In this document: one piece after another, positions 6,040 through 25,256 of the stretch | How positions within the stretch are numbered: position 1 is the stretch's first letter | Layout of the letters: each line of letters begins with the position of its first letter | Assembly: GCA_017556795.1 (NCBI GenBank) | Contig: JAFYLZ010000004.1 | Span: 1-64,000 of the forward strand | Origin: Candidatus Saccharimonadota bacterium | GTDB lineage: Bacteria > Patescibacteriota > Saccharimonadia > Saccharimonadales > Saccharimonadaceae | DNA: 64,000 bases | Direction: 5' to 3' | Made by a program: the position numbers and the translations under genes | The notes under the pieces: generated by a model | The model's database searches: none | The model's input: the letters and a program-made list of their open reading frames with translations, nothing else | What the model was told of the DNA's origin: nothing

Positions 6040-7860
6040 ATGTGCGGTATCGTAGGCTACGTTGGAAATCAACCAGCTGAGGGGGTTTTGTTAAACGGAT
6101 TAAAAAGGTTGGAGTATCGTGGGTATGACTCGTCTGGTATTGCGACCCTTGATGATAAGGAACAGCCGCATTTGGTGCGCGCGGTGGGCAAGATCGCAGA
6201 GCTTGAAAAAGCTTTGATAAAGACGCCGCTTACGGGGAACATGGGTATTGGCCATACGCGTTGGGCGACGCACGGTGGGGTGACCGTCGAGAACGCGCAT
6301 CCGCATCATGTCGAGAATGTTTTCCTGGTACATAACGGTATTATTGAAAACTTTAAAGATATCAAGGCGTTCTTAAAGAAACAGAAATTCAATTCTGACA
6401 CCGATTCAGAGGTGTTGGCGGCGTTGATTAACCATTATTACAAGAACGGTACGAAGCTAGAGGACGCCGTGGCTAAGGCTTTGAAGAAGGTGCGTGGCAC
6501 CTATGGTATTGCGGTGTTCTCGCCACTTGAACCAGGGAAGATTGTAACTGCTAGGCTCGGTAGCCCACTTGTAATCGGCCTTGGTAACGGGGAAACGATT
6601 ATCGCTTCTGACGCATCGGCTTTGCTTGGCTACACTCGTAAGGCAATCTATCTTAACGATGGCGAGATGGCGGTTTGTACGGCGGATAAGGTGAATGTGT
6701 TTGATTTGAGTCTCAAGGTGGTCGATAACAGCCCAGAGGAAATTGAGGGTGACGCATCGCAAATTCAGAAGGGCGGCTACGATCACTTCCTCTTAAAAGA
6801 GATTATGGAGCAGCCAACAACTTTGCTGAATACCTTGTCTGGTCGCGTGGACGCTAAGAAGGGGACGTTGCGCCTTGGCGGGCCGAACCTGACCCCAAGT
6901 GAAATCAATAAGATTGAGCATGTCGTGATTGTGGGCTGTGGTACGGCGTATTACGCTGGGTTGCTCGCTTCGTATTACATGGAACAGTTGGTACCAAACC
7001 TAACTACAGAGGTGGTGGTGGCATCGGAATATCGTTATCGTTCCTTCCATTTGCCAAAGAATTCAGTGGCGCTCGTGGTCTCGCAATCTGGTGAGACGGC
7101 TGATACGTTGGCATGTCTGCGTGAGATTAAGAAGCGCGGCGTGAAGACGTTTGGCATCGTGAATGTAGTTGGTTCGACGATTGCAAGGGAAGTGGACGGC
7201 GGTACTTATATTTATGCTGGCCCAGAGATGTCTGTGGCTTCGACTAAGGCCTTTACGGCGCAGGCGGTGGCAATGTTAATCTTTGCTGGTATGTTGGCGG
7301 GGCATCGTGGCGGTGATCCAGCCAAGTTACATCAGTTGGCTGAGGAATTAGTGGCTTTGCCAGATGAAATTGCGAAGGTTTTGAAAAAACACCAAGGTCA
7401 AATCGAGAAGTTAGCTAAGAAATATGCCAAATACGAAGACGCATTCTTCCTCGGTCGCGATACGGCCTATCCGATTGCACTCGAGGGCGCATTGAAGCTC
7501 AAAGAGATTTCTTACATCCACGCTGAGGGTTACGCTTCTGGTGAGCTCAAGCATGGCCCAATCGCATTGGTTGACGAGACGTTCTTTGAGGTGTTCTCGA
7601 TTTTGGATAACTGGTTATTCGAGAAGTCGATTGGCGGTCTTCAGGAGGTGCGCGCACGTGGTGGCAGGGCAATCGTGTTTACCGATTCGAAGCGTGAGAT
7701 TGAGGCGGATGATGTCGTAAGGATTGATACTGATATCAAGATGATCACGCCGCTTCTTATTAATGTCTTACAACAGCTGTTTGCTTACTACGTAGCGGTG
7801 AAACGCGGTAACGATGTGGACCAACCACGCAACTTAGCAAAATCAGTAACGGTGGAATAA
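6040..7860 (+). CDS. glmS: Glutamine-fructose-6-phosphate aminotransferase (isomerising)
   Basis: 606-aa GlmS, making glucosamine-6-phosphate from fructose-6-phosphate and glutamine, the entry to UDP-GlcNAc and peptidoglycan. The mature N-terminus MCGIVGYVG supplies catalytic Cys2. The class II glutaminase domain includes GHTRWATHG. Two SIS domains follow (GCGTAYYAG, SQSGETADT, and LGRDTAYPIALEGALKLKEISYIHAEGYASGELKHG split over the second). The end, LAKSVTVE, is the conserved catalytic tail. A perfect AAGGAGG (6025-6031) sits 8 nt before the ATG. No glmS ribozyme is seen in the short upstream gap. Confidence 0.97.
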   Translation: MCGIVGYVGNQPAEGVLLNGLKRLEYRGYDSSGIATLDDKEQPHLVRAVGKIAELEKALIKTPLTGNMGIGHTRWATHGGVTVENAHPHHVENVFLVHNGIIENFKDIKAFLKKQKFNSDTDSEVLAALINHYYKNGTKLEDAVAKALKKVRGTYGIAVFSPLEPGKIVTARLGSPLVIGLGNGETIIASDASALLGYTRKAIYLNDGEMAVCTADKVNVFDLSLKVVDNSPEEIEGDASQIQKGGYDHFLLKEIMEQPTTLLNTLSGRVDAKKGTLRLGGPNLTPSEINKIEHVVIVGCGTAYYAGLLASYYMEQLVPNLTTEVVVASEYRYRSFHLPKNSVALVVSQSGETADTLACLREIKKRGVKTFGIVNVVGSTIAREVDGGTYIYAGPEMSVASTKAFTAQAVAMLIFAGMLAGHRGGDPAKLHQLAEELVALPDEIAKVLKKHQGQIEKLAKKYAKYEDAFFLGRDTAYPIALEGALKLKEISYIHAEGYASGELKHGPIALVDETFFEVFSILDNWLFEKSIGGLQEVRARGGRAIVFTDSKREIEADDVVRIDTDIKMITPLLINVLQQLFAYYVAVKRGNDVDQPRNLAKSVTVE

Positions 7861-7870
7861 GGAGTTTATC

Positions 7871-8485
7871 ATGAATAAATGGTTAGAATTAATTAGAAAA
7901 AGTGCGGGCGCGGCAGTTTTGATTGGGCTAGGGAACTTTGCGCTTTTAAAACTTGGTAATCCGCTTGGCCCAATCATTTTTGCCTTTGGGCTGCTTGGTG
8001 TTTGTTATCTGGGGCAGAACCTATTTACGGGGAAGTGTGGGTTTTTGTTCCAGGATAAGATTCCGGTACTAGATCTGCTGGTGATTTTGGTGGTCAACTT
8101 GGTGGCTGGCTATCTGGTTGGCATGGCATTTGCGGCGGCTGATCCAAGCATTGTGCCGGCAGCGAGCGACAAGGTAGCAAGCTGGGACTTCTCGATGGCC
8201 TACTTCATTAAATCCATACTCTGCGGCGTGGTGATGTATTTGGCGGTAGCAATCTATAAGAAGGGTTCGCCGCTTGGGATTATCTTTGGCATTCCACTCT
8301 TTATCTTCTGCGGTTTTCAGCACTGTATCGCTAACGTGATTACGATGGGTGTGGCAACTGGGTTCTCTTGGAGCTTGGCGCTTGCTGTGGCAGGGAACTT
8401 TGCCGGGTCGCTACTGATTTGGCTGCTGGCTGGCGAATATGGAAAAGTAACAACTAAAACCAAAATTAAAACGACGAAAAAATAG
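7871..8485 (+). CDS. Formate/nitrite transporter (FNT) family membrane protein
   Basis: 204 aa with about six hydrophobic segments. FNT hallmarks: GPIIFAFGLLGVCYLGQNLFTG near residues 33-57 (the NLFTG loop equivalent to ELFTG of FocA), the inverted-repeat partner CGFQHCIANVITMG with the central His of the FNT filter, and GNFAGSLLIW. FNT channels conduct small monovalent anions such as formate, lactate, nitrite or hydrosulfide. It is shorter than the usual 260-280 aa, with reduced termini. TAAGGAG overlaps the glmS stop, so it is the third gene of that operon. Export of a fermentation acid would fit a fermentative epibiont; that is inference. Confidence 0.8.
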   Translation: MNKWLELIRKSAGAAVLIGLGNFALLKLGNPLGPIIFAFGLLGVCYLGQNLFTGKCGFLFQDKIPVLDLLVILVVNLVAGYLVGMAFAAADPSIVPAASDKVASWDFSMAYFIKSILCGVVMYLAVAIYKKGSPLGIIFGIPLFIFCGFQHCIANVITMGVATGFSWSLALAVAGNFAGSLLIWLLAGEYGKVTTKTKIKTTKK

Positions 8486-22835: not shown

Positions 22836-23813
22836 TTAGCCGCGTGGTGGTTCGCCGTCTGGCTCGCCGAGTAATTTCTTGGATTTGATTTCGTAGCGGC
22901 GACCGTTGACTGGCGAGACGTAGTAGTCTTCGTTCAAAAGATTTACAAACATCGTAAGGTCTTTGTCGTCCATAATAATAATGGAGCCATCGTCGTCGGT
23001 CATGAGGTCGAGCTGCATCTCGTCGGCATAATTGATGAGTTCTTTTTGTGGCATCTCGGAAGCGATGTCCATAGCTTGGAGCTTCTTTAAGATAGGCTTC
23101 TTGTACTCGAGGAGGGAATTAAGCGTGACACCTTCGGCGAAGGAGAGCTTGTATTTGTCGGTGAGCTCTTTGGCTTTAGCCTCGGCGATTACCTGGGATT
23201 TGTAATCATATTGGAAAAGGTTTTCGAATTTAGATTGGTTAAAGATAACGATGTTGCCATCGATGATAGCGACTTGGTTGTCATCTGGCATCTTAAGCGC
23301 GACTTCGGCAGAGAATGGCTCAAAGCTCTCGCCGTTGATCTCCCAGCTAGAGGCGCCCTTGAGCGCGCTAGAGGCGGAAATGGCCTTTGCGATGTAGAAG
23401 GTCTTGGTGCCGGCGTCGCCACCAGGGTAGGTGAAGCGAGCGATGATACCCTTGATCTTCTTGAATTCGTATTCGTTATCAGAGAAAATCGCGATGTCTT
23501 TATATTCGTTCTCGATGAGGTGGATAAGGGTTTCGGCACGGCCGACCTTGTCGAGATTGGTGCGGTAGATGACGTTTTCTTCGCCATCGGCCTTTTCGTA
23601 CTCGCGGCATTCCAGGCCTTTGTTGGCTTCTTCAATAATGAATTTAACGGCAGACTGCATGAACAAAGCTTTGACGCTATTTGTTAATTTGTCTGAGTAC
23701 TTAATTTTGAAAGGCGTATAATTTTTGTTGAATAAAAATAGTTCGGCACTGACGTTGTTTTTGATTTCGTCAATTTCATTGGCCCATAGAAAGACATCGA
23801 AATTTTTTTCCAT
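22836..23813 (-). CDS. DUF4868 / KwaB-like protein (possible anti-phage)
   Basis: 325-aa soluble protein. Its order of features fits DUF4868, the family of the Kiwa defence effector KwaB: an N-terminal part with NTP-like AIFSDNEYEFKKIKGIIARF, then LKMPDDNQVAIIDGNIVIFNQSKFENLFQYD (the 'non-self strand, IF, FExxF' core), a helical middle, and the ending VNLLNEDYYVSPVNGRRYEI followed by KSKKLL. KwaB in Kiwa pairs with the membrane protein KwaA; no KwaA-like gene is adjacent here, so it is an orphan. The ATG has GAGGAAAA upstream. Assignment is from remembered family patterns and needs a profile search. Confidence 0.6.
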   Translation of the reverse strand: MEKNFDVFLWANEIDEIKNNVSAELFLFNKNYTPFKIKYSDKLTNSVKALFMQSAVKFIIEEANKGLECREYEKADGEENVIYRTNLDKVGRAETLIHLIENEYKDIAIFSDNEYEFKKIKGIIARFTYPGGDAGTKTFYIAKAISASSALKGASSWEINGESFEPFSAEVALKMPDDNQVAIIDGNIVIFNQSKFENLFQYDYKSQVIAEAKAKELTDKYKLSFAEGVTLNSLLEYKKPILKKLQAMDIASEMPQKELINYADEMQLDLMTDDDGSIIIMDDKDLTMFVNLLNEDYYVSPVNGRRYEIKSKKLLGEPDGEPPRG

Positions 23814-23998: not shown

Positions 23999-24016
23999 AG
24001 GGGCCAAAAATAGGTC

Positions 24017-24045
24017 TTGATTTTTTTGAAAAAAAGGCTTACACT
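24017..24045 (+). promoter_or_regulatory. Candidate promoter of the structured leader/ncRNA
   Basis: TTGATT (24017-24022), a 17-bp spacer, TACACT (24040-24045). It would start an RNA about 50 nt before the large helix at 24104. Confidence 0.6.
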
Positions 24046-24103
24046 TAAGTCAGTGGAAAAAAGAAAATAAACACCACAAAAATCAAAAAGGTACATTAAC
24101 AAA

Positions 24104-24362
24104 GTTTGAGATCGGCCAACTAGGAGTTTCGGCGCGCGTTAAATTTAGCGAGACGCGTCACAGCAATCGTGCGTTCTTTCCTCAAAAAACACACCTCCCA
24201 ATTAAAACTCTATATTAGGTCTAAAAACCAACACAATAATCTCTCAACAACCATAACTCATGGTTAGCTTCGGCTGGCCGAATTGTGGTAGAAAATTGTG
24301 AAACACAAAAACTATAAGCAAAAAACAAAAACGCTGAAGTTTCTAGTTGAGCGATCTCAAAC
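24104..24362 (+). ncRNA. Candidate structured RNA or long leader ahead of rsmH
   Basis: A long-range helix closes this region: GTTTGAGATCG (24104-24114) pairs perfectly with CGATCTCAAAC (24352-24362), and after a 2x2 internal loop CAACTAG (24117-24123) pairs with CTAGTTG (24343-24349). Eighteen base pairs enclose 219 nt. Inside is a 7-bp stem with a UUCG tetraloop (24261-24280) that tolerates two G-U pairs, which suggests an RNA rather than a DNA function. No RNase P, tmRNA or SRP landmark is present. The right arm also contains the -35 of the rsmH promoter, so an operator role for the inverted repeat remains possible. No terminator is seen before rsmH. Confidence 0.5.
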
Positions 24363-24376
24363 GAAGAGTGTATAAT
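24347..24376 (+). promoter_or_regulatory. Leaderless promoter of rsmH
   Basis: TTGAGC (24347-24352), an 18-bp spacer, TATAAT (24371-24376), then 7 nt to the ATG at 24384. Confidence 0.75.
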
Positions 24377-24383
24377 TATACAC

Positions 24384-25256
24384 ATGGAAGAACTTCATAA
24401 ACCAGTTTTACTAACAGAAGTTCTGGAGGCCTTGAATCCTCAGTCTGGTGAGTCTTATCTAGATTTAACAGCAGGGTACGCAGGGCATGCCAGTAAGATT
24501 TTGGATGTGACACGGAATTATAAAGATTCAGTACTCGTGGATCGAGACGAAAACGCTGCAAAGTGTTTACGCGAGAAGCTTGGTCCGGCGATTACCATTA
24601 TGAACACGGATTTTTATAGCGCGGTGCTGCAGTTAATCGAGTGTGGAAAAACTTTTGATTTAGTATTAGCAGATTTTGGAGTTTCTTCTCCGCAACTAGA
24701 TATGGAAGAGAGAGGTTTCTCTTTCTCTAAGGATGGTCCTTTGGATATGAGGATGGACAGAAGGCAGACGTTGACGGCGGATGAAATTGTGAACCATTGG
24801 AGCGAAAGAAGGCTCGCGGAGATTTTTGTGAAGTACGGCGAAGAAAAACCGGGCAGAGCAAAAATGCTAGCGAGGGAAATTGTGCATCAAAGACCAGTAA
24901 AGGGAACGAAAGCCTTGGCGGAGATCATTGCTAGCAAATCGCGTTATAGCAAGACTCATCCGGCAACTCAGATTTTCCAGGCGATTAGAATTGTAGTCAA
25001 CAACGAGCTCGAAGAGATTGAAAAAACTTTGGAGCTTCTACCAAAGATTCTAAACCCTGGTGGCAGAGTCGCATTAATCACATTCCATAGTCTCGAAGAT
25101 CGTCTAGTAAAAGAATATTTCAGAGAAGCCAGCGAATATGGCGAAGAGTCCGAACTAAAAATTCTTAATAAGAAACCAATTGTTGCGGGGAAATCTGAGT
25201 TAGTTATCAACCCGCGCAGTCGTAGCGCAAAGCTGCGAGCCGCTGAGCGGATTTGA
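24384..25256 (+). CDS. rsmH: 16S rRNA (cytosine-1402 N4)-methyltransferase RsmH
   Basis: 290-aa MraW/RsmH, which methylates C1402 in the 16S decoding centre. SAM-binding motif I is YLDLTAGYAGHA (usual form DgTlGgGGH), followed by VLVDRDENA, and the family block DLVLADFGVSSPQLDMEERG with SFSKDGPLDMRMDR. The C-terminus has ALITFHSLEDRLVKEYF. It opens the division/cell-wall cluster, as in most bacteria, but no mraZ precedes it; a 570-bp non-coding region does. Leaderless-type promoter. Confidence 0.95.
   Translation: MEELHKPVLLTEVLEALNPQSGESYLDLTAGYAGHASKILDVTRNYKDSVLVDRDENAAKCLREKLGPAITIMNTDFYSAVLQLIECGKTFDLVLADFGVSSPQLDMEERGFSFSKDGPLDMRMDRRQTLTADEIVNHWSERRLAEIFVKYGEEKPGRAKMLAREIVHQRPVKGTKALAEIIASKSRYSKTHPATQIFQAIRIVVNNELEEIEKTLELLPKILNPGGRVALITFHSLEDRLVKEYFREASEYGEESELKILNKKPIVAGKSELVINPRSRSAKLRAAERI

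Follow-up and report, generated by a model that had tools for sequence, protein, structure and literature searches.

A conserved structured RNA with a boxA element and a long closing helix in the mraZ-rsmH division operon of Saccharimonadales

The region in front of rsmH

We analysed the DNA that precedes rsmH (mraW), the first gene of the division cluster, in a Candidatus Saccharimonadota bacterium (assembly GCA_017556795.1, contig JAFYLZ010000004.1; the analysed stretch of 64,000 nucleotides is referred to as the window). The features recovered at the locus, and what they rest on, were the following (window positions):

24017..24045, + strand: promoter of the RNA, -35 TTGATT (24017-24022), 17-nt spacer, -10 TACACT (24040-24045); sequence, same form and spacing in 17 of 19 same-genus loci
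24053..24077, + strand: 5' hairpin GTGG/CCAC of the predicted transcript; compensatory swap to TTAGCG/CGCTAA or GTAGAT/ATCTAC in same-genus loci
24091..24103, + strand: rRNA-type boxA (GTACATTAACAAA); boxA-like element 5' of the left arm across loci, boxA in the rrn leaders of relatives
24104..24134, + strand: closing helix P1, left arm; arm complementarity, folding against shuffles, covariation
24135..24157, + strand: stem 1 of a putative H-type pseudoknot (24135-24139 with 24153-24157); assigned from the sequence by comparison with the scored pseudoknots of relatives, genus alignment
24148..24170, + strand: pseudoknot stem 2 (24148-24151, in the loop of stem 1, with 24167-24170); GCGA/UCGU here, GCGG/CCGU in locus L004, longer in other genera
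24172..24179, + strand: second boxA-like element CGTTCTTT, internal to the RNA; G..C.TT kept in alignment A2
24191..24212, + strand: C-rich single strand ACACCTCCCAATTAAAACTCTA with hardly any variation; 35 of 43 same-genus genomes carry the exact pattern, alignments
24231..24248, + strand: near-invariant single strand ACACAATAA-TCTCTCAAC (AUAAGUCUCUCA in nearly all others); alignments and pattern search
24250..24290, + strand: variable hairpin, UUCG-capped in the window genome; folding, comparison with relatives
24301..24331, + strand: A/C-rich single strand (ACACAAAAAC...GCAAAAAACAAAAAC); alignments
24332..24362, + strand: closing helix P1, right arm, holding the -35 of rsmH; complementarity, covariation
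24347..24376, + strand: rsmH promoter, TTGAGC (24347-24352), 18-nt spacer, TATAAT (24371-24376), ATG 7 nt on; sequence, TATAAT kept in 18 of 19 same-genus loci
24368..24383, no strand: palindrome GTGTATAATTATACAC across the rsmH -10, reaching the start codon; sequence
24384..25256, + strand: rsmH (mraW); Pfam PF01795, E 1.2e-90

An earlier note on this DNA had described two 20-nt arms (24104-24123 and 24343-24362) that pair in 18 of 20 positions across 219 nt; these were recovered as described, and the complementarity extends to arms of 31 nt (24104-24134 and 24332-24362) that lie 197 nt apart and match in 25 of 31 positions (81%). The region 24000-24400 folds with a z-score of -6.1 against shuffles, and the segment enclosed by P1 (24104-24362) folds at -76.8 kcal/mol (z -7.1), a value that none of 200 shuffles equalled. 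The TTGATT-17-TACACT promoter and the overlap of the right arm with the -35 of rsmH were likewise found where the note had placed them, and mraZ, which it had reported as missing, gave no convincing match in a tblastn search over all 674,245 bases of the genome (best E 0.37). The UUCG hairpin is indeed present (~24262-24284), but it belongs to a segment that varies among relatives and lies outside the conserved core. Judging from the promoter positions, transcription of the RNA would start around 24052 and the rsmH mRNA of the window genome is probably leaderless.

Several further observations concern the surroundings of the RNA. The palindrome GTGTATAATTATACAC at 24368-24383 is perfect, and other genera also flank the -10 with inverted repeats (e.g. 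CCTCTAGTTTATACTAGAGGAATG in L231); such a palindrome may serve as an operator, or as a hairpin in read-through transcripts. The divergent neighbour of the RNA (22836-23813, - strand) encodes a KwaB-like protein (Kiwa anti-phage defence; Pfam PF16162, E 1.2e-10), relatives of which (77-87% identity) adjoin the RNA in 15 of the 20 same-genus loci fetched, the window included, so that the gene can be considered a stable neighbour. The contig starts with the 3' end of a 16S rRNA gene (1-293), the anti-SD region of which reads ATTACCTCCTTT.

Architecture and spread of the RNA

A blastn search matched the region in 23 of the 24 genus members searched, with the window genome among those counted, and all 16 genomes from other families were negative; in other genera of the same family we recognised the same elements upstream of rsmH by eye, despite the lack of a blastn match. 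An order-wide search with a core pattern (ACCTCAC N0-20 TAAGTCTCTCA) recovered 169 of 294 genomes and 96 of 143 genera, and the reversed control pattern recovered none. The matches carried the names Saccharibacteria, Saccharimonadia or Patescibacteria, apart from MAGs without a name and a single record under the label Sulfurimonas, a chance match in which the remainder of the RNA is absent. Among the 179 motif loci, rsmH lies directly downstream on the same strand in 171, seven end before it and one is the chance match. The gene immediately upstream is mraZ in 131 of the 145 distinct loci, and the place of the RNA throughout the order is between mraZ (or its lost place) and rsmH; in some loci the identities of MraZ and RNase III rest on sequence motifs or tblastn only.

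The architecture was derived from alignment A2, which holds 30 sequences spread over the order, the window included, with the variable hairpin cut out. P1 comprises 25 pairs in this alignment, and 94.6% of the 740 cells hold standard pairs, compared to 24-44% when the partner strand was slid by 1-3 columns; one position recurrently shows a mismatch (A.G or G.G). Two-sided changes occur in 22 of the 25 pairs and in 131 cells, where shuffles give 35.6 and none of 500 came as high, which provides the compensatory changes expected within the predicted helices of a structured RNA. The arms are therefore conserved as a pair, which was the check that the earlier note had proposed. Roughly a tenth of the cells are G-U pairs and, as these serve an RNA helix and not a DNA helix, P1 should act as RNA. 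Just inside the left arm most sequences can form an H-type pseudoknot, with different letters each time (e.g. GUGCG/CGCAC with ACAUUUG/CAAAUGU in L060 and AAGUGG/CCACUU with AGGG/CCCU in L120), and the mean score of these pseudoknots, obtained with a simple custom script, was 22.5 versus 7.8 in shuffles. The pseudoknot is followed by near-invariant single strands (GYACCUUNCUC, ACACCUCCC and CUCCACCUCACACAUAAGUCUCUCA; also ACAAAAACAAACA), then by the variable hairpin, two A/C-rich strands and the right arm. Conservation is higher within this enclosed segment than in the arms themselves. The genus of the window represents a divergent branch, in which ACACCUCCC was kept and the second ACCUC copy was lost. 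Neither an alternative-fold switch nor a conserved terminator was seen in the RNA.

A covariance model (R1) found a single copy in the window genome, the locus itself, and matched 38 of 380 genomes of the phylum, nearly all of them within the order. Outside the order it matched four of the five remaining genomes of the class and three genomes of other classes (E 3e-12, 2e-5 and 7e-5). All seven distant matches (L261-L267) lie directly behind mraZ, identified by Pfam in one case and by ORF resemblance in the others, and since the search was blind to the neighbours this is independent support that the weak matches are real as well. A boxA precedes the RNA in two of the three farthest matches (L265, AACCTTGACAATTAA; L266, AACTTTAACAAC). 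Five of the seven are followed by rsmH; in the other two (again L265 and L266, genomes G485 and G566) rsmH is missing at that place, and the RNA was kept between mraZ and an ftsL-like ORF with ftsI behind it, which ties the RNA to the mraZ-division operon rather than to rsmH as such. R1 gave no match in two complete genomes of other classes, one of which lacks a spacer between mraZ and rsmH while the other has a strongly structured spacer of 240 nt with A/C-rich strands (L334, ~7837-8084, - strand, genome G365), possibly a diverged relative of the RNA.

The arrangement of promoters differs between loci with and without mraZ. Where mraZ is upstream, the RNA begins at a median of 71 nt after the end of the mraZ match, and with a strict pattern a promoter was detected right before the RNA in only 3 of these 131 loci versus 8 of the 14 loci without mraZ, where at least two more promoters have a slightly longer spacing. 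Because promoters are so rarely seen between the two, the RNA is probably co-transcribed with mraZ where mraZ is present; the promoters found where mraZ was lost imply that the RNA outlives mraZ. A -10 element is located 4-12 nt before the ATG of rsmH in 52 of 141 loci (5% in shuffles), a distance that implies a leaderless rsmH mRNA. The alternative design, an A/C-rich spacer without a promoter before rsmH, implies co-transcription of the RNA and rsmH.

boxA and the relation to known RNAs

A boxA-like element (GYWCHTTAACAATTNA) was found upstream of P1 in 121 of 145 loci, compared to 5.7% of shuffled upstream regions, and the same element is carried by 16S gene leaders in the same order (GTTCATTAACAATTAGG, GTCCTTTGACAATTTAG and GTTATTTAACAATTTGG). 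We take it to be the rrn boxA consensus known from E. coli. Its distance to P1 ranges from 9 to 96 nt among the loci. The window genome encodes NusB (PF01029, E 1.3e-31), and an ORF that adjoins nusB resembles RNase III by motif only (signature NERLEFLGD). With a boxA consensus near the transcript start and a gene for NusB in the genome, the locus has the makings of a boxA-directed antitermination unit, and by analogy NusB-S10 would bind the boxA and alter elongation. Rho was not found in the window genome, and the family cut-off was reached in none of the 30 genomes searched, so that boxA should not serve against Rho here. The genus yielded one weak rho match and other families several; the latter are probably ATP-synthase-like proteins.

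No match to the locus was obtained among 4227 Rfam families, neither at the gathering threshold nor at E 10, and none was obtained for 12 relatives at E 1; a literature search found no description of the RNA. Specific candidates were also rejected: i) RNase P RNA (RF00010) gave no model match at the locus and has its own gene at G000:C1:16977-17302; ii) tmRNA (RF00023) gave neither a model match nor an ARAGORN call in the window and has its own gene at G000:C1:13547-13902; iii) 6S RNA (RF00013) was not matched in the window genome, and the one sub-threshold match among 30 genomes lies elsewhere; and iv) the mraW motif (RF01746) had no match with an E of 1 or below in any of 60 genomes of the order, with a positive control in Corynebacterium glutamicum. 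The tmRNA and RNase P RNA genes are ~3 kb apart in the window genome, and they are also near neighbours in the other members of the genus in which both were located; in other families they are mostly on different contigs.

The closest likeness is that to the pre-16S leader-trailer helix with its rrn boxA (rrnTAC). In both, a long helix (>20 bp) surrounds a conserved folded RNA and has a boxA 5' of its left strand, and NusB and a putative RNase III are encoded in the window genome too. Pre-16S of E. coli requires its leader-trailer helix, and tethering through boxA has been proposed to aid formation of that helix (PMC10250234). Unlike the pre-16S unit, the RNA encloses ~200 nt unrelated to 16S and sits in a division operon, and the distance from boxA to P1 varies more than that from boxA to boxC in E. 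coli, which is fixed; this variation counts against the pre-16S-like reading. The mraW RNA motif of Actinomycetales is situated upstream of mraW. It is among the conserved RNA structures listed in PMC2864571 and is linked by name to mraW/rsmH, but it has 107 positions and is not homologous to the RNA by covariance-model test. The raiA motif (ModT RNA; Bacillota and others) is likewise structured, of unexplained biochemistry and often beside a ribosome-related gene, but ModT RNA has variable neighbours (PMC11706538), whereas the RNA described here has a fixed place, and no Rfam match to raiA/ModT was obtained. Finally, noncoding decRNAs are excised from the transcript of the E. coli mraZ-rsmH-ftsL-ftsI operon (PMC6156199); these come from the same operon but lie inside coding sequences, whereas the RNA is intergenic and has its own boxA and helix. 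The RNA thus belongs to a known general kind but forms a new family that combines its features in an unusual way, resembling a small rrn unit in some respects without being rRNA.

Possible roles in the division operon

Comparison of the sequences across the order and beyond establishes the boxA, P1, the pseudoknot, the invariant single strands and the constant position, with mraZ in front and rsmH or ftsL behind. On balance we lean, by a little, towards the reading that this is a structured RNA kept in the mraZ-division operon, folded and processed like pre-16S, and functioning as a 5' control and processing module of the division transcript. The RNA would be transcribed with mraZ or, as in the window, from its own promoter where mraZ was lost. 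NusB and S10, bound to the boxA, would then keep the left arm close to RNA polymerase while the ~200 nt up to the right arm are made; P1 would close and become a substrate for RNase III, by which the RNA would be separated from the downstream mRNA. The folded RNA could subsequently act through its C-rich strand, its A/C-rich strands and the pseudoknot, and division might in this way be tied to ribosome supply. In the genus of the window the second promoter, within the right arm, would allow rsmH to be made without the RNA as well. We have moderate confidence that tethering of the left arm by a boxA complex helps P1 to form and that P1 is open to RNase III. With the same confidence we expect the RNA to work on the division transcript or, with nearly equal likelihood, as a free molecule. 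The RNA leader that the earlier note had put forward is borne out to the extent that the arms are kept as a pair with wide covariation and G-U pairs behind a conserved promoter, and control of the division cluster by an RNA is plausible; control of rsmH by it is not obligatory, given the 52 of 141 loci in which a separate -10 closely precedes the ATG of rsmH.

A serious contender, to which we attach somewhat less than an even chance, is a trans-acting structured noncoding RNA (like raiA/ModT, OLE or 6S) that is merely housed in the division operon, from which it would be excised to work elsewhere, where its anti-SD-like ACCUCC strands could, for instance, contact ribosomes or mRNAs. A function as free RNA is favoured by the near-invariant loops, which exceed the needs of a spacer or a processing signal, and is consistent with the pseudoknot, with the own promoter retained or gained once mraZ was lost, with the separate rsmH promoter in many loci and with the E. 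coli precedent of RNAs cut from this very transcript. The rRNA-type boxA suggests an abundant stable RNA, and 6S RNA was not detected in the window genome. The fixed place across the class and beyond argues the other way, if weakly, since the mraZ-rsmH order is itself conserved. Moreover, no target was found: complementarity to 16S is within the range of shuffles, and the core ACACACCUCCC resembles the decoding site of 16S (ACACACCGCCC) no more closely than shuffles can. In this connection we rejected the idea that the core imitates the site in 16S on which RsmH acts (ACACACC[G]CCC); the core does match 16S best at the decoding site, but an equally good score was reached by 27-50 of 200 shuffles, and the flanks of the core are not conserved across genera, so the resemblance is an attractive but unproved idea that does not reach significance.

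A riboswitch-like role, in which the RNA as rsmH leader would sense a small molecule (e.g. S-adenosylmethionine) through the pseudoknot, seems very unlikely to us. An A-rich linker within the H-type pseudoknot, the methyltransferase nature of RsmH and the closeness of the helix end to the rsmH start in many loci would fit such a sensor, but it is weakened by the lack of an Rfam riboswitch match and of a visible expression platform, by the rsmH promoters that often lie downstream of the RNA, and by the two genomes that keep the RNA with no rsmH behind it. The looping operator offered in the earlier note, a protein binding both arms and looping the DNA over the rsmH promoter, is hardly credible: the -35 inside the right arm and the palindrome over the -10 would suit it, but covariation keeps the pairing through G-U pairs, the arms vary among genera more than the segment between them, and many genera have no promoter at the right arm. 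Next to no weight can be given to Rho attenuation relieved by boxA, as in E. coli leaders of the suhB type, for although boxA is present and the C-rich, G-poor single strands resemble rut sites, their exact sequence is conserved, unlike that of rut sites, and the genomes searched lack a credible rho.

The widest interpretation of the RNA is a tentative one, possible but doubtful at present: the Patescibacteria would have an RNA class of their own, rRNA-like in build and maturation (boxA, leader-trailer-type helix, RNase III), which as a stable noncoding RNA from the division operon would couple ribosome synthesis to division in ultrasmall bacteria that lack Rho. Saccharibacteria are genetically tractable by natural transformation (PMC10633639), so that it is feasible to delete the RNA and to attempt rescue. 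A boxA unit of the rrn type that stands apart from rRNA, in Rho-less bacteria, makes roles of boxA beyond opposing Rho testable, such as the folding of long-range helices, and a previously undescribed, class-wide RNA of ~250-300 nt in the cell-division operon represents a missing piece of the biology of the Candidate Phyla Radiation.
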